Part shown: one piece after another, positions 1-24,781 of the stretch | Numbering within the stretch: position 1 is the stretch's first letter | How the letters are laid out: every line of letters begins with the position of its first letter | Source: a virus | Strand: one strand, 5' to 3' | Length of the DNA stretch: 34,069 nucleotides | IMG/VR virus record: IMGVR_UViG_3300042896_001364 | Span: 1-34,069 of that record | The notes under the pieces: generated by a model | What the model saw: only the letters and a program-made list of their open reading frames with translations | Told to the model about the DNA's origin: nothing | The model's database searches: none | Program-made: the position numbers and the translations under genes

Positions 1-1257
1 ATGGTCAACAGGCTGAAACTGAATGAGAAAACCGTCCGGGAGGCCGAGAACCTGGGGCGGGACTACCAGATTTTCGACACCGATGTGCGCGGGTTTTCGA
101 TCACCATCTATCCCTCTGGCAACCGGGCCTTTACCCTCGACTACCGGGTCGGCGGGCGGCAGCGGCGGATGACCATCGGGCGCTGGCCGGAATGGACCAC
201 GGTGGCCGCGCGCGAACGGGCAAAGGATCTGCGGCGCGAGATCGATGAAGGAATCGACCCGCTCAACCAGCGGGAAAACGCCCGCGAAGCCCCGAGGGTG
301 AGTGATATGACCAAGCGCTATCTGGAGGAGCACACGCCGCACCTCGCCGCCCGCAACGCCGCCGACCAGCATGCCATAATGGCCAAGCTGGTCGAGCCGG
401 ATTGGGGCAGGAAGCTGGTGACGGAGATCACCAAGGCCGATGTGGAAAAGTTGCTGACCAAGATCGCGGCGGGTCGAGCGCGACCGTCAAAGGTCAAGCC
501 CAACAATCGCGCCAAAAAACTTCAGGGGGTGAAGCCAACGCCAGTGCGCGCAAACCGGGTCGGGGAGGTGCTGCGCAAGATGTTCACATTGGCGGTCGGC
601 TGGGGCTGGCGTGAGGACAACCCTGCCAGCGCCTTTCGCCGCCGCATCGAGAATGAACGCGAACGTTTCCTGACGCCTGAGGAAATAGGCAGACTGGCCA
701 AGGCGCTGGATGGGGCGAATGATCAGCGCGCAGCGGGAATCATCCGGCTCTGCATGCTGACCGGCGCGCGGTCAGGCGAGGTGCGCCAAGCGCGGTTTGA
801 ACAGTTCAACCTCGATCTTGCCAGCTGGTCGAAACCCGCCGCGACCACCAAGCAGCGCAAGATCCACCGCATCCCGATCTCCGGCGATGTGGCGGCCATC
901 GTGCGCCAGCGCGGGTTGCTGGTGCCAAAGGGCAGTCCGTGGCTGTTCCCCGGCGACACGCCCGGCCAGCCGGTCAAGGAAATGCGCCGCTTCTGGGTGG
1001 CTATCCAGAAGGAGGCCAACCTGCCAGAGGTCCGGATCCACGATCTGCGCCACACCTTTGCATCGCTCTTGGTCAGCGGCGGGGCCTCGCTCGAGATGAT
1101 CGGCAAACTGCTGGGCCATACGCAGATGCAGACGACCCAGCGCTATGCTCACCTGATGGACTCGCCCCTGCGAGATGGGGTCAATGCTGTGGCTAGCATC
1201 TTCCGGCCCCGACCACAGCTTGTCCATGATGCCGACCAAGAGAAGAAGATAGCGTGA
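1..1257 (+). CDS. int: Tyrosine recombinase (P4-like phage integrase), element 1
   Basis: This is a site-specific recombinase that would integrate and excise element 1. The N-terminal part (about residues 5-95) is the DUF4102-type arm-binding domain with the typical GRQRRMTIG stretch. A core-binding region follows, then the catalytic domain. Visible catalytic residues are Arg257 (TGARSGE), Lys284, His347 and Arg350 (HDLRH), His373 (LGH) and the nucleophile Tyr382 (RYAHL). The length of 418 aa is normal for the family. The ATG is the first base of the window, so its ribosome site and any earlier start cannot be seen. It is clearly homologous to the integrase at 23445-24716, including the shared PVRANRVGEVLRKMF segment, but it faces the opposite way relative to the genes beside it. 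It converges with the next gene, leaving 42 nt between them. Confidence 0.95.
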   Translation: MVNRLKLNEKTVREAENLGRDYQIFDTDVRGFSITIYPSGNRAFTLDYRVGGRQRRMTIGRWPEWTTVAARERAKDLRREIDEGIDPLNQRENAREAPRVSDMTKRYLEEHTPHLAARNAADQHAIMAKLVEPDWGRKLVTEITKADVEKLLTKIAAGRARPSKVKPNNRAKKLQGVKPTPVRANRVGEVLRKMFTLAVGWGWREDNPASAFRRRIENERERFLTPEEIGRLAKALDGANDQRAAGIIRLCMLTGARSGEVRQARFEQFNLDLASWSKPAATTKQRKIHRIPISGDVAAIVRQRGLLVPKGSPWLFPGDTPGQPVKEMRRFWVAIQKEANLPEVRIHDLRHTFASLLVSGGASLEMIGKLLGHTQMQTTQRYAHLMDSPLRDGVNAVASIFRPRPQLVHDADQEKKIA

Positions 1258-3451: not shown

Positions 3452-4416
3452 GCCACAAGGCGACCGTCTGGGCGCTCGACCAGCGCAGCATCAAGGGCAC
3501 AACCAAGATCGTGCTTTGGCACCTTTGCGACCGCTACAACCCCGAGCATGGCTGTTTTCCGTCGCAGGAACTGCTGGCCTATGACTCTCAGGTCAGCCGC
3601 TCCGGCCTGAACAACCATCTCAGCCATCTGGAAAAATGCGGTCTGATGCGACGCGAACGGCGCATCGATCCGATCACCAAGCGCCAGATGTCGACGCGGT
3701 ACATCCTCGGCTTTGAGGAGGGGTTTACGCCTGCACCTGCGGCTGCGACCGCCGAAAGGCCGGAAGAAATCTCATCCTCGGGGGAAAAGCCGTGTCCAGA
3801 TTTTGCACACGGAGCCGAGTCCAAAAAACAGGCCGCCCCGTGTCCAGAAAATGGCCCGAGCCGTGTCCAGAATTTGGACACTAACCTTGTAAGAGAACCC
3901 CTAAGAGAACCTGTAAAGGAGGAGGAGGAGGAAGACGCTGCGCGCGACGCTGATTTTGATCGGTTCTTCGTGGAGTTGCTGACCGCGCTGGGCTTCGCCG
4001 CAAACGCCGCCCTTCCCGCTTGGTGGCAGGGCTGGCCTGCACGGGTGCATATTCGGCGCTGGCGGCATGACCTCGGACTGTCGGAGGCCCGGATCATTCA
4101 GACCGCGAGGGAAACTCGCAGTGATCATCCCAATCCGCCTGACGGTCCCAAGGCCCTCGATAGGTTCATGGAACGCGCAGCCCAGCGCGATGCCCAAAAG
4201 GCGGCGACCTCGACCAGTTCCGGCAAAGCCAAGCGCCGCCGCAAGGCGGAAACCCAAGCGCCGAACAACGATGATGAAGTGGCGGTCTACTACGCCGCAA
4301 TCGTGAACTCGGACGATTATTTTCCCCGCGATTTGTTCGGCAGCCGCACCTGCGGATTGATGTTAGCGCGTGGCCTCGTCACGCCGGAACGCCTGCGCCA
4401 GCGGATGGGACAGTGA
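3448..4416 (+). CDS. Phage replication initiator, lambda-O-like, with winged helix N-terminus
   Basis: The 322-residue protein begins with a winged helix-turn-helix of the HTH_36 type (about residues 1-92; recognition region around CFPSQELLAYDSQVSRSGLNNHL). Then comes a low-complexity linker, an acidic run EEEEEDAAR near residue 155, and a C-terminal domain that may contact a helicase loader. The DNA encoding the linker carries four iterons (3790-3881). The origin-within-initiator-gene layout is known from lambda O. The start overlaps the stop of the nuclease gene, and the stop overlaps the GTG start of the methyltransferase. The N-terminal domain is similar to that of the product of 26265-27125, while the C-terminal parts differ. 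The assignment as initiator rests on domain, position and iterons together. Confidence 0.8.
   Translation: MSHKATVWALDQRSIKGTTKIVLWHLCDRYNPEHGCFPSQELLAYDSQVSRSGLNNHLSHLEKCGLMRRERRIDPITKRQMSTRYILGFEEGFTPAPAAATAERPEEISSSGEKPCPDFAHGAESKKQAAPCPENGPSRVQNLDTNLVREPLREPVKEEEEEDAARDADFDRFFVELLTALGFAANAALPAWWQGWPARVHIRRWRHDLGLSEARIIQTARETRSDHPNPPDGPKALDRFMERAAQRDAQKAATSTSSGKAKRRRKAETQAPNNDDEVAVYYAAIVNSDDYFPRDLFGSRTCGLMLARGLVTPERLRQRMGQ
3790..3881 (+). repeat. Iteron array inside the initiator gene, putative replication origin of element 1
   Basis: There are four copies of a CCGTGTCCA-type unit starting at 3790, 3815, 3838 and 3861, with spacings of 25, 23 and 23 nt. The best copy is a palindrome, TGTCCA-N5-TGGACA. 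The first and third copies are slightly imperfect and the second is degenerate. Two direct repeats of TAAGAGAACC (3890-3899 and 3902-3911) lie just downstream in a stretch of lower G+C that could serve as the unwinding element. Confidence 0.7.
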
Positions 4417-5663
4417 ATGGCATGGTGTCACGTCCCCGGCGTGGATTGTCCCTCTGCGCAGGCGGCGGAGGCTTGGATCTGGGCGTCATGCTCGCTGAAC
4501 CCGGCTATCACACCCGCGCATTTGTGGAATGGGAAGACTGGCCCCGCACAGTTCTCATCGCCGCCCAGCGCGCCCGGTATTTCGCCCCCGCGCCAATCTG
4601 GGATGATCTGCGGACATTCGATGCCCGACCCTTCTGCGGTGCCTTCGACACCGTCACCGCCGGATATCCTTGCCAGCCCTTCAGCGCCGCCGGTAAGCGT
4701 GGCGGTGCTGACGACCCTCGGCACCTCTGGCCAGAGGTGGCCCGCGTCATCGGCGAGTGCCAGCCCGAATGGGTGTTTCTCGAAAACGTCGCAGGTCATG
4801 TCACCCTCGGCCTTGAATCCGTGCTGCGAGAGCTTTGGGACTTGGGCTACACGCCTGCGGCGGGCCTGTTCTCTGCGGCAGAGGTTGGCGCGCCGCACCA
4901 GCGGTTGCGCATCTTCATCCTGGCCCACACCGATGAGCCTGCATCCCGGCACAGCGAACTACAGCCCGGCCGGAAACAGCGACTTCACCCGCAAGGCCGA
5001 GGCGCTGGCGCTGGGCATCAGCAACTGGTCGACGCCGAAGGCGACCGATGGCGCGAAAGGTGGGCCGGGGCAGAGCTATGGCTCGGGCGGGATACCACCG
5101 TTGCCAGCGCAGGCGGCACAGTGGCAAACACCTGTGGCCGACGACCAGGCCGACCGTCTTCGCGGCAAGATCAACAGCCGGGGCGAGCCGAAACTGAGCG
5201 CGCAGGCGATCCAGTGGCCGACCCCGGCGGCGCAGAACTGGAAGGGCAGCAGCCCGGCCAGCGTGACCCGGGCCGATGGCAAGTCGAGGATGGATATCCT
5301 GCACTACCGGGCGGAACAGGGCTTCATCCACCCGGCCCCGGTGATCGCGCCGCATGGGCTGCAACCCTCGCATCACGCCCCGATCTCGCGCCCGCTGTGG
5401 GCTTCGATGATTGCCTCGCATGGGCGCGTCGTCTCGCGGCGGATTCTGAAGGGTCGGGCGCGGCGGCGGCTGAACCCGCTGTTCGTCGGCTGGTTGATGG
5501 GCTGGCCCATCGGTCACGCGCTCTGCGCCTGCTCGGCAATGGAGTTCACCCTCTGGCAGCAGCGCATGCGTGGCGCGCTCTCACGGCTGCCCACGGCCTC
5601 CGGCCCGTGGATCTGGCGCCCGGCGGAGGAGCCGGAGGGCCCAGCGCAGATGAACCTCTTTGA
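4413..5663 (+). CDS. C5 cytosine-specific DNA methyltransferase
   Basis: This enzyme transfers a methyl group from S-adenosylmethionine to carbon 5 of cytosine in DNA. In 416 residues the family motifs are: I, GLSLCAGGGGLDLG (11-24); IV, GYPCQPFS with catalytic Cys87; VI, ENV (124-126); VIII, QRLR (163-166); and X, LLGNGVHPLAAAHAW (about 372-386). The GTG start at 4413 overlaps the preceding stop (GTGA); the ATG at 4422 is an alternative. No cognate endonuclease lies next to it, so it may protect phage DNA from host restriction. The oddity is that codon bias moves to the +1 frame from about 4933 and a second family-like product is encoded there (4933-5679), yet motif X stays in this frame. 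Confidence 0.85.
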   Translation: MNGMVSRPRRGLSLCAGGGGLDLGVMLAEPGYHTRAFVEWEDWPRTVLIAAQRARYFAPAPIWDDLRTFDARPFCGAFDTVTAGYPCQPFSAAGKRGGADDPRHLWPEVARVIGECQPEWVFLENVAGHVTLGLESVLRELWDLGYTPAAGLFSAAEVGAPHQRLRIFILAHTDEPASRHSELQPGRKQRLHPQGRGAGAGHQQLVDAEGDRWRERWAGAELWLGRDTTVASAGGTVANTCGRRPGRPSSRQDQQPGRAETERAGDPVADPGGAELEGQQPGQRDPGRWQVEDGYPALPGGTGLHPPGPGDRAAWAATLASRPDLAPAVGFDDCLAWARRLAADSEGSGAAAAEPAVRRLVDGLAHRSRALRLLGNGVHPLAAAHAWRALTAAHGLRPVDLAPGGGAGGPSADEPL

Positions 5664-5679
5664 AGGAATGCTGCCATGA
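4933..5679 (+). CDS. Overlapping +1-frame product with phage-methyltransferase-like tail
   Basis: From ATG 4933 this frame encodes 248 residues, almost wholly inside the methyltransferase gene. It has features recalled from C-terminal parts of phage cytosine methyltransferases: WSTPKATDGAKGG (about residue 34), WPTPAAQNWKG (about 95), and LNPLFVGWLMGWPIG (about 180-193) followed by a TLWQQRMRGAL helix. Third codon positions are strongly G/C in this frame from 4933 on, and its stop forms an ATGA overlap with the next gene (5676-5679), as at most other junctions of this operon. No ribosome site is visible before 4933, so it may be made by +1 frameshifting from the methyltransferase rather than by independent initiation. 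A frameshift-scarred pseudogene is the other explanation. Confidence 0.65.
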   Translation: MSLHPGTANYSPAGNSDFTRKAEALALGISNWSTPKATDGAKGGPGQSYGSGGIPPLPAQAAQWQTPVADDQADRLRGKINSRGEPKLSAQAIQWPTPAAQNWKGSSPASVTRADGKSRMDILHYRAEQGFIHPAPVIAPHGLQPSHHAPISRPLWASMIASHGRVVSRRILKGRARRRLNPLFVGWLMGWPIGHALCACSAMEFTLWQQRMRGALSRLPTASGPWIWRPAEEPEGPAQMNLFEGMLP

Positions 5680-6359: not shown

Positions 6360-6439
6360 AAGCCCCCAATGGCGATTTTATTGGTCGCATGCCGTCTTCT
6401 TCATCGCTAGGTTGACGAAAAATATTGTCTGGGGTGCAT

Positions 6440-9400
6440 ATGACGGCCATCGATAGAATCCTTCAATCCTACCGCGATGCTGCTGTCACCGAACGCGAAA
6501 AGGGCACCTACTTTGAACGCCTCGGGCTGGCTTTCTTCCTAAACGACCCGGTTCAGTCTGAGGAGTACGAGGCGGTCTGGACATGGTCTGAATGGGCAAA
6601 GGCCAATGGTCGTGATGGCAAGGATGTCGGCATCGATCTGGTCGCAAAACTGCGCAATGAGGATGGTTTTGCTGCGATTCAAGCCAAATTCTATGCCGCT
6701 GATACACGAATCCAGAAAGCCAATATCGACAGCTTCATCTCCGCCTCGGGCAAGGAGCCTTTCCGCAGGCGCGTCGTTCTCGACACGACCGAAAGGGAAT
6801 GGGGCTCCAACGCCGAGGAAATGATCCGCGATCAGGCCATCCCGGTCGTTCGTATCGGGCTGACCGACCTTCGCGAAAGCCGGATCAACTGGACCATTTT
6901 TGAGGCGCGCGGTGAGATCGTGCTCAGCGCCAAGAAGACCTTGATGCCGCACCAGCGGGACGCGCTGGCGGACGTCAGCAAGGGCCTCGCTGCGGCTGAT
7001 CGCGGCAAGATGATTATGGCTTGCGGCACGGGCAAGACCTTCACCTCGCTGAAAATCGCCGAAGCCATCGCGGGCAAAGGCAAGCGCGTTCTGTTTATGG
7101 TGCCATCACTGGCGCTGATGTCCCAGACTGTGCGTGAATGGACCAATGACACCGAAACGCCGATCCGCGCCTTCGCGGTATGCTCTGACGCCCATGTCGG
7201 CAAGCGCCGTAAAAGCACGGACGACATCGCGGAAATCGAAATCCACGATCTGGCGTTTCCGGCCACCACAGACCCGGTCAAAGTTGCCGAAAAGGCGGGT
7301 GCGGACGATCCGGAACGGATGACGGTCATCTTCTCGACCTATCAGTCCATCGTCACACTGACCCGTGCTCAGGAAGCAGGTCTGCCCGATTTTGACCTGA
7401 TCATCTGCGATGAGGCGCACCGCACCACCGGTGCCACCCTCGACGGCGATGAGGAATCAAATTTCGTCAAGATCCACAGCAATGACAATGTGAGGGCCCG
7501 CAAGCGCCTTTACATGACCGCCACGCCCCGGATCTTTGGTGATAATGTTCGCAGCAAGGCGGAAGAAGTCGGTGCCGACCTTGTTTCTATGGACGACTCC
7601 GCGCTGTTTGGCGAAATATTGTTTCACCGTGGCTTTGGCTGGGCGGTGCAGAACGGCCTGCTCACCGATTACAAGGTCATCGTGCTGGCGATGGACGAGG
7701 GTTTGGTCAGCGCGGCGGTGCAAAAACGGCTCGGCGACGCGGGCAGTGAACTGGTGTTGGATGATGCAACCAAGATCATCGGTTGTTACAAGGCGCTGAC
7801 CAAGATCGACCTAAAAATCGACGTCGCCGCGGATCCTCGCCCGATGCATCGCGCCATCGCGTTTGCTAAGGACATCCGCAGCTCCAAACTGATCCGCGAC
7901 GAATTTGCCGCCGTGGTGGATGAATATCTCGGCCAGGACAGTCTGATCGAGAGCGACGAACCTACCAGCCACCTCCAGTGCGAAATCGAACATGTTGACG
8001 GCACTTTCAACGCCAAGACCCGCGGCGCACTGCTGGATTGGCTGAAGGCCGATGCGGGAGATAATACCTGCCGTATCCTGACGAACGCCCGCTGTCTGTC
8101 CGAAGGCGTCGATGTTCCAGCCCTTGACGCCATCATGTTCCTGCACCCCCGCAAGAGTCAGATCGATGTCGTCCAGTCGGTCGGTCGAGTAATGCGGACG
8201 TCCGAAGCCACGGGCAAGAAAATGGGCTATGTTATCCTCCCGGTCGGCGTGCCCGCCGGGGTTCCAGCCGAACAGGCACTGGCCGACAACGAACGCTACC
8301 GCGTCGTCTGGCAGATCCTGAACGCCCTGCGCGCCCATGACGAACGCTTCGACAGCACCATCAACAAAATGTCGCTTGGCCAAGACATCAGCGATACCAT
8401 TGAAATCGTCGGCATCACCGCCGAGTCCGAAGAGCTGAAATCTGTCACCGCGGTCGTCCAGAACTTGCCGAACAAAACCAAGGCAGCCGGTTCCGGTATC
8501 GGCTCGGGCGGTGGCGGAAATGGCGATGATGTCATCGAGGGGCCTGAACCAACCCAAACCGAGATGACCTTCTCGATCGACGAATTCTCCCGCGCCATTA
8601 TGGCCAAGATCGTCAAGAAATGCGGCACCCGCGATTATTGGGAGGACTGGTCAGCCTCCATCGCAGAGATCGCCAAGAACCACATCACTCGCCTGACCGC
8701 CCTGCTGAAAGACCCCGACACCGAAGCGCGCCGCGCCTTCGATGCCTTCCTTGGCGAACTGCGTGACGATCTGAACGACACCATCTCTGAGAGCGACGCC
8801 ATCGAGATGCTGGCGCAGCACATCATCACCCGGCCCGTGTTCGAAACCCTCTTCGAAGGCCACAAGTTCACCGCCGAAAACCCTGTCTCCCGCGCCATGC
8901 AGCGCGTGCTGGATGTGCTGAACGAGGCCAACCTCGACAAGGAATCCCGAGACCTCGAAAAGTTCTACGCCAGCGTCAAGCTGCGGTCACAGGGAATCAC
9001 CGACCCCCAGGCCAAGCAGAAACTGATCGTCGAGCTTTACGACAAGTTCTTCCGCCGCGCCTTCCCCCGCACCACCGAAAAGCTGGGCATCGTCTACACC
9101 CCGGTCGAGATCGTCGATTTCATCATCCATTCGGTGAACGAGGTGCTGCAATCCGAATTCGGCCAGACCCTCGGCTCCCCCGGCGTCCACATCATCGACC
9201 CCTTCACCGGCACCGGCACCTTCATCACCCGTCTGCTGCAATCCGGCCTGATCGCGCCCGAAGAGATGGAGCACAAGTTCCGCCACGAAATCCACGCCAA
9301 CGAGATCGTGCTGCTGGCCTATTACATCGCCGCGATCAACATCGAGGCGGTTTATAACGGGCTGCAGGGCGGCGACTATGTGCCGTTCGAGGGCATCTGC

Positions 9401-11314
9401 CTGACCGACACCTTCCAGATGTATGAAAGCGACGACCTGATCTCGCACTACATGCCCGACAACTCGGAACGGCGGAAGCGGCAGAAGGCTACGGATATCC
9501 GCGTGATCGTGGGCAACCCACCCTATTCGGCGGGGCAAGATAGCGCAAACGACAACAATGCCAATGTGAGCTATGCGACTCTTGATGGGCGCATCCGAGA
9601 TACTTATGCAGCGCGTTCAACAGCAACCCTCAAGAGCGCGCTTTACGACAGCTATATCAGGTCGATCCGCTGGGCGTCGGATCGGATTGGCGATGCTGGT
9701 GTTGTGGGGTATGTTACCAACGCTGGCTGGGTCGATGGAAATGCGGCAGATGGCCTGCGCGCATGTTTGGCGGAAGAGTTCAGCAACCTTTACATTTTTC
9801 ATTTGCGTGGAAACCAACGCACTAGCGGGGAGCTATCTCGTCGTGAGGGAGGCAAGATATTTGGCTCAGGTAGCCGCGCACCGATCGCCATCAGCATTTT
9901 CGTCAAGAACCCCAATGCCACCGAGTATGGTCGTATCCACTTTCATGATATCGGAGACTACCTCGATCAGAAACAGAAGCTTGCGATCGTTCGAGATTTC
10001 GCAAGCATCGGAGGAATATCTAGAGCCCAAGGTTGGTCGCAAATCACTCCTGATGAGCGCAACGATTGGCTAAATCAGAGAGACTCGTCTTTTGACCGCT
10101 ATTTACCAATGGGAGATCGGTCTGGTTCTCCGGCCATTTTCTCCGCATTTTCTCGCGGATTTCTTACGAGTCGAGATGCTTGGTGCTATAATTCCTCCAA
10201 AATTCAACTTTGCGAAAAACTGATTTCGATGATTGCGGAATACAATAGGCAGCTTGTAAAGGTCGGTTCAGGTGACATCGAGTATATTGCAGACTCTGAT
10301 CCAACCAAAATTTCTTGGTCGGCCGATTTAAAACGACGTCTTGGAGCCCGGCAGAAGATCGAATTCAACGGCGCTGCAATAGCACTTTCAGTTTACCGGC
10401 CGTTCACAAAACAATTAGTCTGTACAGATAAGAACTTGATCGAACGCCCTGGCAAACTATTGGATATGTTTCCCACCCAACAGATAGAAAATCGCGTGAT
10501 TTCTATTAAGGGAAATTGGAGGAAAGACGGTCAGATCGCGTTAATGTTGGACGGCATATATGCGGATCAAACTGACACAGGGGCGCAGTGCTTCCCTCTA
10601 TACCTTTATAATCAGCAGCACGAGGAACCCAGTGGCCTCTTCGGTGGCCAAACGTCCGACAATCAACGTCGCGACGGGATCACTGACGCTGGCCTGAAGC
10701 ACTTCCAGGACGCTTATCCCGGCGAGACGATCAACAAGGAAGACCTCTTCTACTACGTCTACGGCCTGCTGCATTCCGAGGATTACCGCGCGAAATACGC
10801 CGACAACCTGTCCAAGGAACTGCCCCGCATCCCCCGCGTGAAAACCGCCGCCGACTTCTGGGCCTTCAGCCGCGCGGGCCGCGAGCTCGGCGACCTGCAT
10901 GTGAACTATGAAACGGTCGAACCCTACCCCGTCACGATCAAGCAAGGCGACCTGCGCCTGGCCGACATCAAGAACCCCGAGGCCTTCTACCGCGTCACCA
11001 AATGGGCCTTCGGCAAGACCGGCAAGGAAAAGAACAAGACCACCGTCATCTACAACGCCAACATCACCATGCAGGACATCCCGTTGGAAGCCTATGACTA
11101 CGTCGTCAATGGCAAGCCCGCGCTGGAATGGGTGATGGAACGCCAGGTGGTCAAGACCGACAAGGATAGCGGCATCGAAAACGACGCTAACCGCTACGCC
11201 ACCGAAACCGTCGGCAACCCCGCCTACCCGCTGGAACTGTTCCAACGCGTCATCACCGTCAGCCTGCGAACCATCGAAATCGTGCGCGGCTTGCCGAAGC
11301 TGGAGGTAATGTGA
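6440..11314 (+). CDS. Type ISP restriction-modification enzyme (nuclease-helicase-methyltransferase)
   Basis: This single polypeptide of 1624 residues both restricts and methylates DNA, like LlaGI and LlaBIII (about 1570-1580 aa). Domain order: Mrr-like nuclease with Asp66 and QAK (81-83); SF2 translocase with Walker A ACGTGKT (about 195), ICDEAH (about 320), MTATP (about 360) and QSVGRVMR (about 580); a helical coupler; an N6-adenine methyltransferase with motif I DPFTGTGTF (about 920) and NPPY (about 1028); then a C-terminal target-recognition region. The recognition part (about 9530-10640) has visibly lower G+C than its flanks, as expected for an exchanged specificity domain. ATG 6440 is preferred (GGGG 5 nt upstream); TTG 6425 is possible. 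No separate specificity subunit is needed. Confidence 0.9.
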   Translation: MTAIDRILQSYRDAAVTEREKGTYFERLGLAFFLNDPVQSEEYEAVWTWSEWAKANGRDGKDVGIDLVAKLRNEDGFAAIQAKFYAADTRIQKANIDSFISASGKEPFRRRVVLDTTEREWGSNAEEMIRDQAIPVVRIGLTDLRESRINWTIFEARGEIVLSAKKTLMPHQRDALADVSKGLAAADRGKMIMACGTGKTFTSLKIAEAIAGKGKRVLFMVPSLALMSQTVREWTNDTETPIRAFAVCSDAHVGKRRKSTDDIAEIEIHDLAFPATTDPVKVAEKAGADDPERMTVIFSTYQSIVTLTRAQEAGLPDFDLIICDEAHRTTGATLDGDEESNFVKIHSNDNVRARKRLYMTATPRIFGDNVRSKAEEVGADLVSMDDSALFGEILFHRGFGWAVQNGLLTDYKVIVLAMDEGLVSAAVQKRLGDAGSELVLDDATKIIGCYKALTKIDLKIDVAADPRPMHRAIAFAKDIRSSKLIRDEFAAVVDEYLGQDSLIESDEPTSHLQCEIEHVDGTFNAKTRGALLDWLKADAGDNTCRILTNARCLSEGVDVPALDAIMFLHPRKSQIDVVQSVGRVMRTSEATGKKMGYVILPVGVPAGVPAEQALADNERYRVVWQILNALRAHDERFDSTINKMSLGQDISDTIEIVGITAESEELKSVTAVVQNLPNKTKAAGSGIGSGGGGNGDDVIEGPEPTQTEMTFSIDEFSRAIMAKIVKKCGTRDYWEDWSASIAEIAKNHITRLTALLKDPDTEARRAFDAFLGELRDDLNDTISESDAIEMLAQHIITRPVFETLFEGHKFTAENPVSRAMQRVLDVLNEANLDKESRDLEKFYASVKLRSQGITDPQAKQKLIVELYDKFFRRAFPRTTEKLGIVYTPVEIVDFIIHSVNEVLQSEFGQTLGSPGVHIIDPFTGTGTFITRLLQSGLIAPEEMEHKFRHEIHANEIVLLAYYIAAINIEAVYNGLQGGDYVPFEGICLTDTFQMYESDDLISHYMPDNSERRKRQKATDIRVIVGNPPYSAGQDSANDNNANVSYATLDGRIRDTYAARSTATLKSALYDSYIRSIRWASDRIGDAGVVGYVTNAGWVDGNAADGLRACLAEEFSNLYIFHLRGNQRTSGELSRREGGKIFGSGSRAPIAISIFVKNPNATEYGRIHFHDIGDYLDQKQKLAIVRDFASIGGISRAQGWSQITPDERNDWLNQRDSSFDRYLPMGDRSGSPAIFSAFSRGFLTSRDAWCYNSSKIQLCEKLISMIAEYNRQLVKVGSGDIEYIADSDPTKISWSADLKRRLGARQKIEFNGAAIALSVYRPFTKQLVCTDKNLIERPGKLLDMFPTQQIENRVISIKGNWRKDGQIALMLDGIYADQTDTGAQCFPLYLYNQQHEEPSGLFGGQTSDNQRRDGITDAGLKHFQDAYPGETINKEDLFYYVYGLLHSEDYRAKYADNLSKELPRIPRVKTAADFWAFSRAGRELGDLHVNYETVEPYPVTIKQGDLRLADIKNPEAFYRVTKWAFGKTGKEKNKTTVIYNANITMQDIPLEAYDYVVNGKPALEWVMERQVVKTDKDSGIENDANRYATETVGNPAYPLELFQRVITVSLRTIEIVRGLPKLEVM

Positions 11315-11345: not shown

Positions 11346-12980
11346 ATGAGCAAAGAAGGCCAACTGCTCGACAAAAAATCACTTCGGGCTGTAAGCGGCA
11401 AAACCGCTGATTGGTCTGAGTTGATAAAGGATTGCATCGCCTTTGCCAACGCAACCGGCGGGCGTCTTTTGATCGGCATCGAGGACGACGACGACGCACC
11501 GCCTTCAGGCCAAGTTGTCCTTGCCAGCCTTGCCGACACGGTCAGAAAGAAGATTGGAGAAAAGACCGTTGGCGTTGTATTGCTTCCCCAGATTCTGACG
11601 GCCGAGAATGGTGGTCAGTATCTTGAACTCACCATCGCAAGATCGACGGGTGTCGCGTCGACCAGCGACGGCAGATATTTCCTTCGGGTGATCGATCAGA
11701 GCAAGCCCGTGACGGGTGATGATGTCCTGCGTCTTGCGAACGAACGCTCAGCGTTGCCGTGGGAGACGCAGACGACGCTTGCTGTTTTGCGGGAAAGTGC
11801 CGACGCTGAAAAGTTGGGCAAGCTCATTGCCGACCTGCGTGCTTCTGATCGGGTGAAGCCGTCCGTCAAGGAAAAAACCCAAAATGAACTGCTGGACCAC
11901 TACCAGCTGGCAGAAGGTTCAAGCCTTACTAATCTAGGTGTGCTCTGCGTGGGCAGACAGCGGGATCGTGCAAAACTCAGCACGGCGCCGGTGGTTCAAT
12001 TCATCAAACAAGATGAGTTAGGGCAAAAGGTGAACAAGATCGTTTGGGACGATCACACGGTAAGTCCAATGGAATTGATCGAAGCGATTTGGCGTGACAT
12101 TCCAGATTTTCGAGAGCGATACGAGCTGCCCGACGGGCTATTCCGACAGCACGTTCCGGCGTTTGACGAGGTTGTCGTTCGTGAGCTTTTGGTGAACGCA
12201 TTGGTGCACCGCCCTTACACGCAACGCGGAGACATCTTCCTGAATCTGCATCCAGATCGACTCGAAATCGTGAACCCCGGCCAACTCCCGCTCGGTGTCA
12301 CACCGCAAAACGTTCTGCACACTACCGTTCGCAGAAATGAGCATCTGGCACGCCTGTTTCATGACCTGAAATTGATGGAACGGGAGGGAAGCGGCTTTGA
12401 TCGAGTCTATGAAGTTTTGCTTTCACAGGGCCGCCCTGCCCCCGAAATTATAGAGGGTGCAGACAGCGTGACGGTTATAGTCCGCCGCCGGATCCTGAAG
12501 CCTGAAGTCATCGATTTTATCGCAAAGGCTGACGAGACCTACCACCTTACGCAGCGCGAACGAATTTCTCTGGGACTGTTGGCTCAGCACGATGCACTGA
12601 CGGCGCGTGAACTTATTGGCAGTCTCGAGCTGGGATCAATTGAAAATTTGCAGCCGTGGATCCGGCGACTGGTAGACTGGGGTCTGGTAAAGAGCGTAGG
12701 GCGCACGCAGGCCACCAAGTATTTTGTTGATCCTCAGCTGTTGCGAAGTCTCCAGTTCGCGGGTGAAACTACATTGAAGCGCATTGAACCGCACCGCTTG
12801 GCTGCCCTCATCGTCGAGGATGTTGGCCGCTACCCACTTTCCCAGATCAGTGATATCCAAGGTCGTATCGGTAGTGAGATCCCGAGGACGCAGATCAAGC
12901 GCGGTCTTGCTGATCTGATACAGTCCGGCCGACTAGTGTCGGAAGGCGTAAAGCGAGGCACCCGCTACAGGCTTCCCTGA
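11346..12980 (+). CDS. AlbA_2 / RecG-like ATP-binding transcriptional regulator family protein
   Basis: This 544-residue protein has an N-terminal AlbA_2 (Schlafen-type) DNA-binding domain (about residues 10-130, with the ELIKDCIAFANATGGRLLIGI hallmark), a central GHKL-like ATPase segment (about 275-350: VRELLVNALVHRPY, then IVNPGQLP and NEHLARLFHDL), and C-terminal winged helices. Such COG2865 proteins are annotated as RecG-like helicases or regulators, and their biochemical role is poorly known. They often accompany restriction systems. It follows the type ISP gene by 31 nt on the same strand, suggesting co-transcription and a regulatory or accessory defence role; that is inference. Confidence 0.8.
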   Translation: MSKEGQLLDKKSLRAVSGKTADWSELIKDCIAFANATGGRLLIGIEDDDDAPPSGQVVLASLADTVRKKIGEKTVGVVLLPQILTAENGGQYLELTIARSTGVASTSDGRYFLRVIDQSKPVTGDDVLRLANERSALPWETQTTLAVLRESADAEKLGKLIADLRASDRVKPSVKEKTQNELLDHYQLAEGSSLTNLGVLCVGRQRDRAKLSTAPVVQFIKQDELGQKVNKIVWDDHTVSPMELIEAIWRDIPDFRERYELPDGLFRQHVPAFDEVVVRELLVNALVHRPYTQRGDIFLNLHPDRLEIVNPGQLPLGVTPQNVLHTTVRRNEHLARLFHDLKLMEREGSGFDRVYEVLLSQGRPAPEIIEGADSVTVIVRRRILKPEVIDFIAKADETYHLTQRERISLGLLAQHDALTARELIGSLELGSIENLQPWIRRLVDWGLVKSVGRTQATKYFVDPQLLRSLQFAGETTLKRIEPHRLAALIVEDVGRYPLSQISDIQGRIGSEIPRTQIKRGLADLIQSGRLVSEGVKRGTRYRLP

Positions 12981-13825: not shown

Positions 13826-14590
13826 TCAGGCAGTTTCGGTGGATTTTCGGGTGCGGCTTTGCGCCAGACGATAGCTCTCGCCGTTCATCTCGAGGATGTT
13901 GACGTGGTGCGTCAGCCGGTCGAGCAGCGCGCCGGTCAGGCGTTCGGTGCCGAAGGTTTCGGTCCATTCATCGAACGGCAGGTTGCTGGTGATCAGCGTG
14001 GCCCCGCGCTCGTAGCGCTGCGAGATCATCTCGAACAGCAGTTCGGCGCCGGTTTTGGAGAGGGGCACGAAGCCCAACTCATCGATGATGAGCAGCTTGA
14101 CTGCGGCCATCTGTTTCTGGACGCGAAGTAGCCGGCGCTCATCGCGGGCCTCCATCAGTTCATTGACCAGCGCGGCGGCGGTGGTGAAGCTGACCGACAT
14201 CCCCTTCTGGCAGGCGGCCAGACCCAGGCCGAGGGCGATATGGGTCTTGCCGGTTCCACTCGGCCCGAGGGCGATGACGTTCTCCCGCCGATCGATCCAT
14301 TCGCAGCGGGCCAGTTCCAGCACCTGCATCTTGTTGAGTTTGGGGATCGCCTTGAAGTCGAAGCTGTCAAGACTCTTGGTGGCCGGGAACTTCGCCGCCT
14401 TGATGCGGCGCTCCACCATCCGCCGCTCACGGTCGATCAGTTCCAGCTCGACCAGGCGCGCCAGGAACTGGACATGGTCCCGCCCCTCGGCCGCGCATTG
14501 GCGCGCCAGCTTCTCGTATTCCCGCAGGAAGGTCGGCAGCTTCAGGGTCTTCAGATGATGGACAAGCAGGATCTTCGGGGCCTCGGTCAT
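13826..14590 (-). CDS. istB: IS21 helper ATPase IstB
   Basis: This AAA+ ATPase of 254 residues is related to DnaC and helps the IstA transposase choose and capture target DNA. Walker A is GPSGTGKT (109-116) and Walker B is LLIIDELG (166-173). The N-terminal helical region is the usual IstB lead-in. The start overlaps the istA stop by ATGA at 14587-14590, the classical translational coupling of IS21 elements. The length is normal and no disruption is seen. Confidence 0.95.
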   Translation of the reverse strand: MTEAPKILLVHHLKTLKLPTFLREYEKLARQCAAEGRDHVQFLARLVELELIDRERRMVERRIKAAKFPATKSLDSFDFKAIPKLNKMQVLELARCEWIDRRENVIALGPSGTGKTHIALGLGLAACQKGMSVSFTTAAALVNELMEARDERRLLRVQKQMAAVKLLIIDELGFVPLSKTGAELLFEMISQRYERGATLITSNLPFDEWTETFGTERLTGALLDRLTHHVNILEMNGESYRLAQSRTRKSTETA

Positions 14591-16098
14591 TCCGCCGCCT
14601 CCGACATCAGCGCCATGTAGCTGGCGGTCGAGGTCGCCTCCACATTCGCGCGCGGCAGATAGGGATAGCTTGCAAGGTCGAGCTTCGGCGGTCGGCTTTC
14701 GATCCGACAGAGCAGCAGGTGCTTGACCGCGTCGAAGCCCACCGCACGCAGTCGAAGGGCATCCTTGATCGCTCCGTGCAGATCATTGAGGCCAAAGGTC
14801 TCGAGCAGGCGCAGAACCTGGACATACTCGCGCCGCCCCATCTTGAGCATGCGCGCCTCCATGAGGCGACGCAGGGTATGAAACTCTTCGGGCAGGTTCC
14901 ATTCTGCCAAGGGTGCCGCTTGATCCAAGGCATTGATCTTGCGCTCGATCAGGGGAAGGTAATGGACCGGATCGAAGACGGCGTCCTCGCGCGCGTAGCA
15001 GCGTGGGTGCCGGGCAATCACCTCCCCGCGGCAGCCGATCACGACCTGGTCGACATAGCCCCGCACCCACACATCCTGATGGCCATAGGCAACCGGCACC
15101 GAGTAGTCGTTGGTGTCATAGCGCACAAGCGACTGTGAACTGACCTTGCCGTTGGCCTGGTCGCAGGCCTCGAATGGCGCGCCAGGCAGGTGCTTCATCG
15201 CGGTCAGATCACGCTGCAGCCGATCGCCGATCGGCTCCTTGTGACTGCGCAGAATGTCGTGCTGGCGCTTGCGGCACTGGGCTTCGAGGTCGGCGTTGAA
15301 CTCCACCCAACTGGCAAAGCGGGGGATGGGCACCATGAAGTTGCGCCGTGCGTAACCCACCAGCCCCTCGACGCTGCCCTTGTCGTTGCCCTTGCCCGGC
15401 CGCCCATACCGATCCCGGAACAGGTAATGCGACTGCAGGGCGCTGAACAGCGTGGCGCGCTTGCGCGTCCCGTCCGGCAGGATCTTCGACACAAGGCAGC
15501 GGTCGTTGTCATAAAGCGCCGTTTGCGGCACCCTGCCGAAGAAGGCAAAGGCATGGACATGGCCATCCATCCAGGCCTCCGCCGTCGCCGCAGGATACGT
15601 CCGCACGAAACAGCTATCGCTGTGCGGCAGGTCCATGACGAAGAAATGGGCCTTCTGCTCGACGCCGCCGATGATCACAACGGCTTCGCCAAAATCCGCC
15701 TGCGCATGCCCCGGCGGGTGGACGAGCGGCACGAACATCTCCCGGCCCCGCAGCTCCCGATCCCGAACGTAATCCTTGATGATCGTGTATCCGCCGGTGA
15801 AACCATGCTCTGCCCGTAAACGGTCGAATACACGCTTGGCGGTATGATGCTGCTTGCGATGAACATCCTTGTCGCCGTCGAGCCAGCTGTCGATGATCTC
15901 GGTGAACCCATCCAGCTTCGGCCGCTTGACAGGAGACGTCCGCCGGTAGCCGGGGGGGATCGAAAACGCCATGGCCTTGTCGACAGTGTCGCGCGAAATG
16001 TTGAAATGGCGCGCCGCAGCGCGCTTGCTCATGCCGTCGGCACAGGCCAGACGAACCTTCAGGTAAAGTTCCACGGTGTAGATCTCCAAACCCTCCAT
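14587..16098 (-). CDS. istA: IS21 transposase IstA
   Basis: This 503-residue transposase has an N-terminal helix-turn-helix (about residues 8-45) that would bind the terminal repeats. The DDE catalytic core has Asp135 in AQADFGEA, an Asp in YDNDR (197 or 199), and Glu244 in KGSVEG. A C-terminal beta-barrel-type region follows. It appears full length and intact, so the IS could still be active. Transcription runs leftward away from hsdR, starting about 95 nt inside the right end. Confidence 0.95.
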   Translation of the reverse strand: MEGLEIYTVELYLKVRLACADGMSKRAAARHFNISRDTVDKAMAFSIPPGYRRTSPVKRPKLDGFTEIIDSWLDGDKDVHRKQHHTAKRVFDRLRAEHGFTGGYTIIKDYVRDRELRGREMFVPLVHPPGHAQADFGEAVVIIGGVEQKAHFFVMDLPHSDSCFVRTYPAATAEAWMDGHVHAFAFFGRVPQTALYDNDRCLVSKILPDGTRKRATLFSALQSHYLFRDRYGRPGKGNDKGSVEGLVGYARRNFMVPIPRFASWVEFNADLEAQCRKRQHDILRSHKEPIGDRLQRDLTAMKHLPGAPFEACDQANGKVSSQSLVRYDTNDYSVPVAYGHQDVWVRGYVDQVVIGCRGEVIARHPRCYAREDAVFDPVHYLPLIERKINALDQAAPLAEWNLPEEFHTLRRLMEARMLKMGRREYVQVLRLLETFGLNDLHGAIKDALRLRAVGFDAVKHLLLCRIESRPPKLDLASYPYLPRANVEATSTASYMALMSEAAE

Positions 16099-16149: not shown

Positions 16150-18801
16150 CTATCCCGCCGCTACCGTGGCCGAGTTTTGCACCGCCGTTCTCAGGATCAG
16201 CGACAGATCATCGAACTTGGAAATGACATCGCTTTCCTCGGCCCGAATATAGGTGTCGATCAAATGTCGCATCGCAGGCTCGTACATCTTGAGATCGATG
16301 TAATCGCCGCTTGCCAGCTTGACCTCGTTTCGCACCTTTTCGAAGTGATCGACGTCCGCCTTGATGGCTGCGGCTTCAATTTCGGAATAGCCTGCCTCAG
16401 CCATTTCATTCGCAACATCGGCGTAGGCCCGCAAAAGCGCGGCCGCCAACCGATAAAGGGCGAGACGCTTCGGCTCATTCTCTTTCAACGCGTCTTTGTC
16501 GGCCGTATCTTCGGCGCAGAAGAACCGCAGATAGGCGTGGGTGTCGCGCGGCGCATCGACCGGCTCGCACAGGGCCCTGACCGCCTCAAGCGCATCGTCG
16601 AGGCGTTCCCGAGCCATCTTCAGGCGATCGGTCAGCAGCCCGGCTACATCTTCCTTGTCATAGCCGTCGAAAGCCTCGGTCGTGTAATCCTTGATCGAGG
16701 TCTCAAGGCTTTTGAACAAGTCCTTGTAGTCAATGACATAGCCATATTCCTTGTCGTCGCCGTCCAGCCGGTTGACCCGGCAGATCGCCTGGAACAGGCC
16801 ATGATCCTGCATCTTCTTGTCGATGTAGAGGTAAGTTGCCGACGGCGCATCGAATCCAGTGAGAAGCTTGTCCACCACGATCAGCAGCTTCATCTGCCCG
16901 GGCTCGTCGATGAACTTCTTCTTGGCCTGTTTCTCGAATGCCTCGGCCTCCTGACCGCCCAGCATCTTGGTGTAGATGTCGTACTGGCGCAGCCGTTCGG
17001 TCAGCCCCTCACCGCTTTCTTCGCCTTTGATATCGCTGGCCGACGGCTTGTAAGACGTCACAATCGCGCATTTACCTGCCAAATCGGTCTTGTCGAACAG
17101 CTCGTAGAACTTGCAAGCCTGATAGATGCTTGACGACACCAGCATCGCATTGCCGTGGCCGCTTTTCAGCCGGTCCTTCAACTCCATATCCATCAGGATA
17201 TCGCCGACGATCTTTTCCAGCCGCGATTGGCTCGACAGCACCTTTTGCATGGTGCCCCAGCGCTGCTTCAGCTGCGCCTTGGCCAAATCGTTCAGGCCTT
17301 TGGTTTTCAATTCGAACCATTGATCGATCTTCGCCTGCGACGTCACGTTCTGGTCGATATCCCGCGCCTCATAGCGCAGATCAAGCACGACGCCGTCCGC
17401 GACCGCCTCGTTGAATTTGTAGGTGTGGATGTAGGGGCCAAACACTTCGAGGCTGGTTTGCTTGTCCTCTTTCAGCAGCGGCGTTCCGGTGAAACCGATG
17501 AACATCGCATTCGGCAGGATCGCCTTCATCGCCTTGTGCAGATCGCCACTTTGCGAGCGGTGGCATTCGTCGACAAAGACGTAAACGTCGCCCTTGGCGC
17601 GAAAATCCTTCGGCAGCGCCTGGCGCACCTCTTCGATGTAGCCGCTGACATCAGCGTCAGACTCTTCCTTGCCACCGAACTTGTGGATCAGCGAACACAG
17701 CAGCCATGGGGCCTCTGCATTCAACTGCGCTATAAGTTCGGCGCCGCTTTTGCTGCGCAGGATGTCCTCGTTGACGCCCTTGAAAACCTTCTCGATCTGT
17801 TCGTCCAATTCTGTGCGGTCGGTGATGACAAGCACCCGCGCGCCCTTCACATTCTCCCGTATCCACTTGGCCAGCCAAACCATTGTCAGGCTTTTGCCGG
17901 ACCCTTGGGTGTGCCAGATGATCCCGCCCTCGCGCCGCCTGATCTGCTCCTGGGCCGCATGCACCCCAAAATACTGGTTGTGACGGCAGGTCTTCTTGAC
18001 GCCCGCGTCATACACCAAGAAATTATGGATCATGTCGAGGAAGCGATCCTTGGCGCACAGGCGCAGCAACGCGGTGTCCAATCGCGAAACGCCCGGCACG
18101 TCGGCCAGATAACGCTGGTCACGCTTGTCGATGCCCTCGCGGTAAGCCGGGTTCTCTTCGCGCCAGGCCAGCCAATACTTCTCCTTCGTCTCGATCACGC
18201 CATAGCGCAGCCCCTCGGTGTCATTCCCCGCCATGATCATCTGCATGGTGGTGAAGAACCGCTGGATGAACATCGGCTTTTGGTTGTCGAGGTTCTGGCG
18301 GATGCCTTCCGATACCGAAACGGTCGAACGCTTCAGTTCCAGCACGCCCAGCGCGATGCCGTTGACATAGATCACCACATCCGGCCGCTTGCCGAAGGTT
18401 TTGCCATCCGAGGTCGCGGCCTTGATCGCCACCTCTTCGGCAATGGCAAAATGGTTGGCCTCTGGGTCTTTCCAGTCGATCAGCCAGACGGTCTGGGTCT
18501 GCTCGCCCACATCCGCCTTCACCTTCACCCCATAGCGCAGCAGGTCGTAAACGTCGCGATTGATGTCATAAAGGCTGCGCGATTGGTCCGTCGCCACCTT
18601 GGTCAGATGCGCGATGGCCTTGGTGATTAGCGCGGGGGCGTAGCCCATGGCCTCAAGGAACGGGCGCAGGTAGGTGGGCTCAATATTCGCGTTGCCCACC
18701 CGGTCGATCCAGTTGCCCAGATGGTCATAACCAAGCTGGTCCTGAAACAGCTGCACGACCCGCGCCTGTGTCCGCTTTTCGATCTGGCCCACGGTGCTCA
18801 T
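16150..18801 (-). CDS. hsdR: Type I restriction subunit HsdR, C-terminally truncated by IS21
   Basis: This is the endonuclease/translocase subunit of a type I R-M complex. In 883 residues: PD-ExK nuclease with Asp141, Glu155 and Lys157 (LELK); Walker A TQGSGKS (298-304); DECH box (411-414); FTGTP (438-441); later helicase motifs GFDAPSATYLYIDKK and QAICRVNR; then the start of the DUF3387-type C-terminal domain. Family members usually have 1000 or more residues. Here homology stops at KFDDLSLI; the last 14 residues and the TAG are encoded by the IS21 right terminal repeat (16150-16193). The missing part normally helps dock HsdR on the methylase core, so restriction may be lost while modification continues. 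The start overlaps the previous stop (ATGA at 18798). Confidence 0.9.
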   Translation of the reverse strand: MSTVGQIEKRTQARVVQLFQDQLGYDHLGNWIDRVGNANIEPTYLRPFLEAMGYAPALITKAIAHLTKVATDQSRSLYDINRDVYDLLRYGVKVKADVGEQTQTVWLIDWKDPEANHFAIAEEVAIKAATSDGKTFGKRPDVVIYVNGIALGVLELKRSTVSVSEGIRQNLDNQKPMFIQRFFTTMQMIMAGNDTEGLRYGVIETKEKYWLAWREENPAYREGIDKRDQRYLADVPGVSRLDTALLRLCAKDRFLDMIHNFLVYDAGVKKTCRHNQYFGVHAAQEQIRRREGGIIWHTQGSGKSLTMVWLAKWIRENVKGARVLVITDRTELDEQIEKVFKGVNEDILRSKSGAELIAQLNAEAPWLLCSLIHKFGGKEESDADVSGYIEEVRQALPKDFRAKGDVYVFVDECHRSQSGDLHKAMKAILPNAMFIGFTGTPLLKEDKQTSLEVFGPYIHTYKFNEAVADGVVLDLRYEARDIDQNVTSQAKIDQWFELKTKGLNDLAKAQLKQRWGTMQKVLSSQSRLEKIVGDILMDMELKDRLKSGHGNAMLVSSSIYQACKFYELFDKTDLAGKCAIVTSYKPSASDIKGEESGEGLTERLRQYDIYTKMLGGQEAEAFEKQAKKKFIDEPGQMKLLIVVDKLLTGFDAPSATYLYIDKKMQDHGLFQAICRVNRLDGDDKEYGYVIDYKDLFKSLETSIKDYTTEAFDGYDKEDVAGLLTDRLKMARERLDDALEAVRALCEPVDAPRDTHAYLRFFCAEDTADKDALKENEPKRLALYRLAAALLRAYADVANEMAEAGYSEIEAAAIKADVDHFEKVRNEVKLASGDYIDLKMYEPAMRHLIDTYIRAEESDVISKFDDLSLILRTAVQNSATVAAG

Positions 18802-19541
18802 GACGGAACCTGCTTCCTGTTAACTTGCGGCAGCGGCGCCCATATCCAGCCCTCGGACACCGGGGCATCTGCGGGCGGTGCTTCCAGCCAGTCGCGCCGC
18901 AGCACAAAGGCATGGGCGATATAGGCACAGACCTCGGCGTCCATGATATCCGCCTTTGGGCCGTTGATGGGCTTGTCGAGTTCGGGAAACACACCCCGCG
19001 CCCGCGCCCGGCAGAGCGCGGGATAGGTTTCGATCAGGGTCATCTGCGCGCCATCCGACCAGACGCCCGGCGCGATCATCTGGGTGAAGCGGGCGACGGC
19101 GTGCATGGCCTTGGTCGACTGGCTGCCGATCATGTCCTTGACGGCCGACAGCGAGGTCAGGCCTTCCTCGTCAAGGCGCCGTTCAGTGAAGCGGTAAAGA
19201 TAGGGGTTCTCATAAGACCGGCCGATCTGGTCCAGCGGTACGCCGCCGGTGATCAACTGGGCGAAAGCGGCCGGAAAGCCGAGCGGGGCGTCGATGGCGA
19301 TTGTGGCTTTGGCTGTGCTTGCAAGCGGGGGCAGCTTGCACAGGGCGAGGATCGCCGTCAGGAAATCGGTGCCTGTGGTTGAGGCGTTGATGGTCAGACG
19401 CAGGTTGCCGCGCCAGGGCTGGCCGATCCGCGCGCCCGCGCCATCCAGCACCACCAGCGCATCGCGGCTGGTGGGGTTCTTGTCGCAGTTCCAGCCGCCG
19501 ACATCCCAGCCGATGAACACCTGATCTCCGCTCGCCGTCAT
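18798..19541 (-). CDS. DUF429 (RNase H-fold) protein embedded in the hsd operon
   Basis: The 247-residue product fits DUF429, a family predicted to have an RNase H-like fold and possibly nuclease activity. Visible landmarks are GWDVGG (11-16), IDAPLGFP (83-90), ETYPA (171-175) and an Asp-rich helix around Asp198-Asp201, spaced like an acidic active site. It overlaps hsdS (ATGA at 19538) and hsdR (ATGA at 18798), so all three are almost certainly co-translated, which implies a job linked to the restriction system. The biochemical function of DUF429 is not established. Confidence 0.75.
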   Translation of the reverse strand: MTASGDQVFIGWDVGGWNCDKNPTSRDALVVLDGAGARIGQPWRGNLRLTINASTTGTDFLTAILALCKLPPLASTAKATIAIDAPLGFPAAFAQLITGGVPLDQIGRSYENPYLYRFTERRLDEEGLTSLSAVKDMIGSQSTKAMHAVARFTQMIAPGVWSDGAQMTLIETYPALCRARARGVFPELDKPINGPKADIMDAEVCAYIAHAFVLRRDWLEAPPADAPVSEGWIWAPLPQVNRKQVPS

Positions 19542-20731
19542 ATCAGCCGCACCCGTCCGGTCAGCAGTTCCTGCATCATGCCCTGCTTGACCGCGCGAGC
19601 CTTGGCGGCCTGCGCCTCAAGCGCGGCGAGGTCGGCGTCCATGTCGGAAAGGACTTCGGCGATAGCGGTTTGTTCAGAGAGAGATGGGAAAGGAATAACA
19701 GTCTTCTTTGCCCCAGAAATCGTGTAAGTTCCAACGGTACTGCCACCCGCGGAGTCTCTGATTTGCCTCATGATTTCTTCGGTCAAGAAAAGCTGACGAA
19801 GAAAACTCGCAGACATTTTGCCACGAATCTTGAACCAAATAATATTGCCATCTTTGAAATAGAACTCTTGGTCACTCTCAACCACGAAAACGCGCCCAAG
19901 AGTCCCGACTCCCGTTACAAGCATATCTCCAACTTCCGGAACCCCAGAGTTGGCTTTGTGGGACTCATATAGATCGCGCGAGACAAACAGCTGATTTTCG
20001 ATAGCCTCATTGTCAGCCAGCAGGACAATCTCACGCGCTCGATAAAACGGCACGCCTTGGGTTTTCCATTCGCTCTGAAACACTCGCTTGCTTGAACCAA
20101 TATCAAAAATCTCGCCCAACCGCTTCACCTCCCACTCCCCCGAGAACCCCGGCAGGCGGGTTTTGCCGGTGAGGAGGTGTTGCATGGCGGCCTGCTTGAG
20201 GTCGCGCTTCTTAGCGATCATCCCCTCCAACGCCGCAATCAACCCATCCGCATCCGCCAACGCCGCCGCAATGGCGCGTTGTTCCTCCGGAGGTGGAGAT
20301 AGAAAATCTCTTTCCTTCAGAAACTTAAAGTGCCGATTGTATCCCGTTGCCTCAATTCCCCTGTGCTCCAATGCGAAGCTGTGAAAGGTTGCTGAGTGGC
20401 CTGATTTTGGGACAAGGATTTGCGTCCCATCAGCGCCAACAACGAAATCATGCAGCACTAACTTTACGATGCACGTGTGATCCCCGAAGATGATTACTCC
20501 GCCTTCAGGGACCGCAAATAGCTTTTCGGCGAAGTCAGAGTATCCTACGATGCGCTTCTGACCTTGATCCACAATCGGGAAAAGTCCCATTTCACGGTAT
20601 TCTGACGTCTGTATCTGATATGCCTTACTCGGAACCTTCCTGAAGACACTTTCGAAGTGCTGAACATCCCAATCTTCCGGAACAACCCCCACCTCAGTCT
20701 GCTTATACCCCGGCCTGATCTCCCCCTGCAT
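19538..20731 (-). CDS. hsdS: Type I specificity subunit HsdS
   Basis: The 397-residue specificity subunit recognises a bipartite target. Two target-recognition domains (about residues 15-150 and 200-345) are each followed by a conserved helical spacer. The repeats are EEQRAIAAALADADGLI...LLTGKTRLPGF and SEQTAIAEVLSDMDADL...LLTGRVRL. The ATG at 20731 is chosen because it lies just past the hsdM stop (20734) and begins with the family-typical GYKQTEVGVVPEDW; the open frame before it lies inside hsdM. Both recognition domains are visibly more AT-rich than the spacers, consistent with exchange of specificity domains. Confidence 0.92.
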   Translation of the reverse strand: MQGEIRPGYKQTEVGVVPEDWDVQHFESVFRKVPSKAYQIQTSEYREMGLFPIVDQGQKRIVGYSDFAEKLFAVPEGGVIIFGDHTCIVKLVLHDFVVGADGTQILVPKSGHSATFHSFALEHRGIEATGYNRHFKFLKERDFLSPPPEEQRAIAAALADADGLIAALEGMIAKKRDLKQAAMQHLLTGKTRLPGFSGEWEVKRLGEIFDIGSSKRVFQSEWKTQGVPFYRAREIVLLADNEAIENQLFVSRDLYESHKANSGVPEVGDMLVTGVGTLGRVFVVESDQEFYFKDGNIIWFKIRGKMSASFLRQLFLTEEIMRQIRDSAGGSTVGTYTISGAKKTVIPFPSLSEQTAIAEVLSDMDADLAALEAQAAKARAVKQGMMQELLTGRVRLI

Positions 20732-20733
20732 CG

Positions 20734-24716: not shown

Positions 24717-24781
24717 GCGGGCTCCCCTTGTCGCACCGACTGAGCAAAGAGAATCGGCAAAGAGCAACCTGCTCTACACGA

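Follow-up and report, generated by a model that had tools for sequence, protein, structure and literature searches.

We analysed the IMG/VR virus record IMGVR_UViG_3300042896_001364 over positions 1 to 34,069 (34,069 nucleotides (nt), hereafter the window) and found a pair of almost fully overlapping genes on its plus strand, which we read, with a probability of roughly 0.85, as encoding a split C5-cytosine DNA methyltransferase of the M.EcoHK31I type, one subunit each. The first gene, alpha, occupies frame 0 at 4413–5663 (GTG start, 416 amino acids) and is predicted to encode the catalytic subunit, with motifs I–VIII and X. The second, beta, lies in the +1 frame at 4417–5679 (ATG to TGA, 420 amino acids if the ATG at 4417 is the start) and is organized as a filler-like N-terminus, a region of WPTP repeats, motif IX and a tail. 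The two genes open in a GTGAATG double start at 4413–4419, with the GTG of alpha at 4413 and the ATG of beta at 4417; the TGA at 4414–4416, between both starts, is the stop codon of the upstream gene. At the other end, direct reading shows that the stop of beta overlaps the start of the next gene (5676) in an ATGA at 5676–5679. A preliminary description made from the sequence of the window had already recognized that frame 0 stays open to 5663 with motif X and that the +1 frame ends in this ATGA overlap, and both observations hold. The two-subunit reading is supported by the conservation of both frames and of the ATG at 4417, by the purging of stop codons in both frames, by the motif content of the two chains and by single-chain relatives.

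Relatives were gathered with both proteins (77 viral loci by beta and 78 by alpha), and 73 loci were usable. Both frames were intact and ended within 25 nt of each other in 66 of the 73, and in 62 the two ends were exactly 16 nt apart. A codon alignment of 63 non-redundant loci from the family of the window (F1) showed variability at alpha position 3 over 4458–4907, at alpha position 1, the wobble position of beta, over 4953–5312, and back at alpha position 3 over 5313–5402; over 5493–5537 it was nearly gone at every codon position. Conservation of the beta amino acids began near 4908. Substitutions in 30 disjoint pairs were sorted according to what they change in each of the two frames and expressed as a ratio to opportunity. 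Over 4440–4900, changes synonymous in alpha and missense in beta were found at 2.70x, and changes synonymous in alpha that create a beta stop at 0.06x. Over 4960–5312, changes synonymous in beta were found at 2.89x when missense in alpha and at 0.14x when creating an alpha stop, and changes synonymous in alpha and nonsynonymous in beta at 0.31x. This last class reached 1.60x in an alpha-constrained segment at 5313–5402 (HPPGPGDRAAWAATLASRPDLAPAVG), and changes that are missense in both frames were strongly avoided at motif IX (0.18x) and motif X (0.07x). Stops were purged about 20- to 45-fold even where one protein tolerates missense changes, and each protein therefore crosses the functional stretch of its partner as an open, variable filler. 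These results indicate that both frames are coding and that they alternate, alpha dominating 4440–4900, beta dominating 4960–5312 and both being constrained over 5484–5590. The preliminary description had proposed such a comparison of homologues and had placed a switch of the coding signal near 4933; the switch is seen on the 63 relatives, but the +1 frame starts earlier than supposed, being free of stops from the start of alpha.

The alpha protein matched PF00145 at 9e-32 and phrog_363 at 1e-54, and the hallmarks of PF00145 were found in it, namely PCQ (motif IV), ENV (VI), RxR (VIII) and the S-adenosylmethionine (AdoMet) fold. Among 60 diverse homologues, G84, P86, C87 and Q88 of motif IV (GYPCQPFS, 4662–4685), E124 and N125 of motif VI (ENV, 4782–4790) and R164 and R166 of motif VIII (GAPHQRLRIF, 4887–4916) were invariant. 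After the variable region, alpha carries motif X (GNxxxP) as LLGNGVHPLAAAHAWRAL at about 5529–5582, in which GNG is invariant or nearly so (G375 and N376 are invariant). No canonical motif IX was found in alpha; it sits in the +1 frame of the same DNA, and alpha departs here from what is expected for PF00145, a target recognition domain (TRD) and motif IX on one and the same chain. In an AlphaFold2 (AF2) model of alpha, residues 10–180 mostly had a predicted local distance difference test (pLDDT) score of 79–97 and the motif X helix (380–393) scored about 92, and the linker at 186–302 fell below 50 and was disordered. Foldseek superposed alpha on the large domain of M.HhaI and M.HaeIII, in the case of M.HhaI over about 177 residues. 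The substitution classes show that the alpha linker over 4960–5312, disordered in this model, is constrained only through beta.

The +1 frame from the ATG at 4933 to its end matched phrog_27243 (unknown function, 248 amino acids) at 2e-142. Full-length beta matched phrog_27243 at 1e-141 over residues 173–420 and phrog_1008 at 2.6e-19 over residues 80–375. The conserved core of beta consists of a series of W-P-T-P modules followed by R-x-L-N-P-x-F-V-E-W-L-M-G-W-P-x-G. The modules lie in a WPTP-repeat region at 4921–5312, a putative TRD whose DNA is read as the filler linker in alpha, and motif IX (RRLNPLFVGWLMGWPIG) lies at 5464–5514, with M361, G362 and P364 invariant in 85 beta sequences. Profile alignment with hhalign placed beta on motif IX of single-chain methyltransferases (E value 9e-10). 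This alignment covered the motif IX stretch only and did not recover the WPTP region, for which phrog_1008, covering both beta and the C-terminal half of single chains, serves as the bridge. No Pfam model matched beta, and an hmmsearch of PDB sequences with the beta profile returned nothing. The methyltransferase-like motifs that the preliminary description had picked out in the +1 frame (WPTP and FVGWLMGWPIG) correspond to the WPTP repeats and motif IX, and its two ordered motifs at about 5470–5600 are IX, read in the +1 frame, and X, read in frame 0, standing in the order seen in single chains. Read in frame 0, the motif IX DNA gives RRLVDGLAHR (5484–5513) in alpha, the stretch with the 0.18x ratio given above. 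The two frames are partly linked here, since the ATG encoding the Met of LMGWP forces a Gly in frame 0, and for this reason the co-occurrence of LMGWP and ADG/VDG was not relied on alone. We also considered whether LMGWP in the +1 frame might simply follow from conservation of ADG/VDG in frame 0, a question settled by the WPTP repeats, the substitution classes and the purging of stops. Motif IX of beta is canonical for C5 methyltransferases and alpha is without it; beta would supply the part that alpha is missing.

The same arrangement is widespread. A genome scan with the alpha profile alone, made without information on the +1 frame, gave 80 loci, of which 57 have motif IX within alpha but in the +1 frame and 2 have it in frame 0; the loci include Rhodobacterales, Rhizobiales, sphingomonads, Phycisphaerae, Chloroflexi, Verrucomicrobia, Firmicutes, Bacteroidota and Nitrospirae. 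Over all loci, motif IX in the +1 frame together with motif X in frame 0 was present in 309 of 353 distinct sequences from several phyla, a count in which most loci came from queries with overlapping members. The records examined are often annotated in one frame only: alpha alone is annotated in E. coli PT62 and Salmonella phage S9-5, beta alone in the Roseicitreum plasmid pRA03 (RefSeq, NZ_CP061501.1 59727-60476), and in Acidovorax phage Alfacinha3 it is the beta frame that is labelled as a methyltransferase. Both frames are annotated in Paenibacillus phage Tadhana. In a group of loci from Firmicutes and Bacteroidota (L209, L214, L243 and relatives), the +1 frame over alpha motifs IV–VIII also encodes a conserved EQLTLFxEDTLASL..KMTxTSGxKCLELLKKSGPLGxLxKMLL..LTWK, and from these sequences the catalytic core itself seems to be dual-coding.

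We then asked where beta starts, taking the number of stops expected from the shuffling of synonymous codons. Upstream of motif VIII, the +1 frame contained no stop in the 63 F1 loci (91.7 expected), none across 48 loci from F2, a distant family (116.4 expected), and none in 5 representatives less than 50% identical (11.1 expected). The +2 frame had no stop deficit (172 versus 173 expected in F1 and 406 versus 290 in F2). In the controls, the flanking genes were at or near expectation (330 versus 312 and 156 versus 171), as were the first 50 codons in the L209 family, and single-chain methyltransferases had 10 stops versus 14.4 expected. In the L209 family (F3), beta starts inside alpha, near codon 55–65 and, in the printed examples, often with an AGGAG-like site; here 122 stops versus 125 expected were counted before the start of beta and 5 versus 63 within it. 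Codon 2 of alpha is AAT in all loci that keep the start motif (59/59 in F1 and 60/60 in F2), although AAT makes up 24% (F1) and 37% (F2) of the other alpha Asn codons and AAC is commoner. This choice of codon preserves the ATG of beta within (G/A)TGAATG, 4 nt after the start of alpha. Five F2 loci have no alpha start codon at this place but retain the beta ATG; in them the alpha frame continues further upstream without a stop, and in most it contains an ATG there. Both frames are translated from the closely spaced start codons AUGUG and GUGUG in E. coli (PMC9841429), and the simplest reading of (G/A)TGAATG is that one ribosome landing site probably serves two start codons 4 nt apart.

It is unlikely, in our view, that beta is instead a shorter protein of 249 amino acids started internally at the ATG at 4933, with the open +1 frame upstream as a by-product. 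Such a start would fit phrog_27243, which begins at this ATG, the RefSeq annotation of exactly this type of open reading frame (ORF) in the Roseicitreum plasmid, and the onset of beta conservation near 4908. It would not account for the absence of beta-frame stops upstream of 4933 (0 versus 92 expected) or for beta-stop mutations being 45-fold rarer there than beta-missense ones; moreover, the phrog_1008 match rises from 48 to 71 bits once the residues upstream of 4933 are added, two relatives (L066 and L068) have no ATG at 4933, and the ATG at 4417 is conserved. Internal initiation at 4933 may occur in addition to that at 4417.

On the two-subunit reading, alpha would provide the large AdoMet-binding and catalytic domain (motifs I–VIII) together with motif X, and beta would contribute the WPTP repeats for target recognition along with motif IX. 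The disordered linker of alpha would span the WPTP region of beta, and the poorly conserved, low-confidence N-terminus of beta would span the catalytic domain of alpha. Both chains would be translated from GTGAATG, alpha from the GTG at 4413 and beta from the ATG at 4417, and would assemble as a heterodimer into one active methyltransferase. We consider reasonably probable a fuller proposal, in which one segment encodes in two frames full-length proteins that start 4 nt and end 16 nt apart with interlocking functional and filler segments, ambiguous initiation at (G/A)TGAATG couples the production of the subunits, the arrangement is a common and mostly unannotated phage form of cytosine methyltransferase, and C-terminal motifs of the ADGL/VDGL kind are frame-shifted readings of motif IX.

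The preliminary description had weighed an overlapping gene pair, programmed +1 frameshifting and compensating indels, and the substitutions and the purging of stops in both frames bear out the first. Compensating indels, pseudogene decay or a sequencing error in one methyltransferase gene would look alike in a single sequence with ordered motifs in two frames; with both frames kept in 66 of 73 relatives, exactly 16 nt apart in 62, with some 310 distinct loci across phyla and with purifying selection in both frames, this is rejected. Programmed frameshifting, yielding alpha alone as well as alpha fused to beta (a second C-terminus, two target specificities), would suit a +1 frame that is conserved after 4908 and in the right phase, and a beta without catalytic motifs of its own. 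A shift near 4910–4930, however, needs no open +1 frame from codon 1, and yet the frame is open from there with its ATG conserved; the beta of the L209 family starts separately within alpha, and immediately ahead of that start stops are tolerated; and in a Gordonia phage relative the partner is a separate ORF. We judge frameshifting to be highly improbable. Two specificities of one enzyme are likewise unsupported, since neither motif IX nor a constrained TRD region is present in alpha and the catalytic motifs are missing from beta; the two motif sets look complementary, as those of subunits. It is improbable, finally, that beta, with both frames translated, acts independently, for example as a regulator or an anti-restriction factor. 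That beta matches no Pfam family or PDB sequence and that restriction-modification genes abound in the neighbourhood would agree with such a role, but the motif IX missing from alpha is on beta, the order in the DNA is that of a single-chain methyltransferase, and single-chain relatives have the same region, placed after motif VIII and before motif X.

Several results weigh against a split enzyme of the M.EcoHK31I type. The AF2 model of full-length beta was poor (overall pLDDT 58), with only the helices around motif IX confident and very low confidence across most of the first 135 residues, and Foldseek found no match with this model. The WPTP region is assigned as a putative TRD by its position and by the single-chain relatives, and it lies on beta, whereas the TRD of M.EcoHK31I is reported on the larger subunit. 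A Shine-Dalgarno sequence of at least 4 matching bases was present in just 21 of 59 F1 loci, a strong one being absent in most, and the derivation of most counted loci from queries with overlapping members, given above, belongs here as well.

To our knowledge, a long overlap of two ancient and constrained proteins on one strand has rarely been demonstrated outside small viral genomes. Hundreds of distinct loci support one such overlap here, including segments in which one frame is constrained and the other merely open. If the two-subunit reading is true, the annotation of many cytosine methyltransferases in phages and prophages covers just one half of the enzyme, and cloning one annotated ORF could fail or mislead. 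The pair is also a natural setting in which ambiguous initiation could be studied, as T4418C is silent in alpha and abolishes the start of beta.

Other restriction-modification genes lie in the window. One gene downstream of the pair is a 1629-amino-acid Type ISP restriction-modification enzyme (6425–11314, plus strand; PF18135, PF22240, Mrr_cat_2, helicase and N6_Mtase), and a Type I locus occupies 16150–23229 on the minus strand, with HsdR at 16150–18801, HsdS at 19538–20917 and HsdM at 20734–23229; the HsdM and HsdS frames overlap by 184 nt as listed. A protein with Schlafen AlbA_2 and HATPase_c_4 (RecG-like C-terminal) domains is encoded at 11346–12980 (plus strand), and proteins of this kind are often found near defence genes. 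With two tyrosine integrases (1–1257, plus strand; 23445–24767, minus strand) and a Mu-type transposase (14587–16098, minus strand), the record may combine several mobile elements.

We compared the pair with known systems. No description of an overlap of the alpha/beta type in phages was found in the open-licence literature, and in the passages found of the GeneTack survey, which covers conserved frame transitions, DNA cytosine methyltransferases are not named (PMC3711429). Beta-type proteins appear to be filed under phrog_1008 ('DNA methyltransferase', 329 amino acids) and phrog_27243, whose descriptions mention neither an out-of-frame methyltransferase overlap nor a partner-subunit role. Another phage methylase gene that conceals a further protein in a different frame is known from ShiLan, where the addition is an inserted HNH homing element with an unrelated product (PMC11855218); here, in contrast, the hidden frame would encode the enzyme's own missing part. 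The methyltransferases of the mycobacteriophages Madiba and prophiGD91-2 share the order found here (motifs I–VIII, LLPTP region, IX as EWMMGWPAGW, X) but consist of one continuous frame without overlap. Two such mycobacteriophage single chains (L160 and L162) carry motifs I–VIII, the LLPTP region, EWMMGWPAGW and GNGV in one chain, and in profile comparison alpha aligned to motifs I–VIII of the single chains at 2e-51.

In M.AquI (CYCGRG), the small subunit holds half of the variable region together with motifs IX and X (PMC3404938). As in the pair described here, the catalytic motifs and motif IX are on different chains, but motif X is here on alpha and the genes fully overlap. Genes 62/61 of Gordonia phage Float294 resemble M.AquI, with a +1-frame partner and a 14-nt overlap; alpha ends right after motif VIII and the partner carries a TPEA region and motifs IX and X, an intermediate architecture. 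The genes of M.EcoHK31I (YGGCCR) reportedly overlap out of frame (Lee et al. 1995), the second chain being read from inside the first gene in another frame, as beta is here. The large chain of M.EcoHK31I comprises motifs I–VIII and X with the predicted TRD, and the small chain motif IX (PMC3404938). By motif layout, with I–VIII and X on alpha and IX on a separate chain, the alpha/beta pair is likened to this enzyme and by analogy would work like it. Unlike those of M.EcoHK31I, the two frames here start together and overlap nearly to a common end, in a form that is widespread in phages and prophages.

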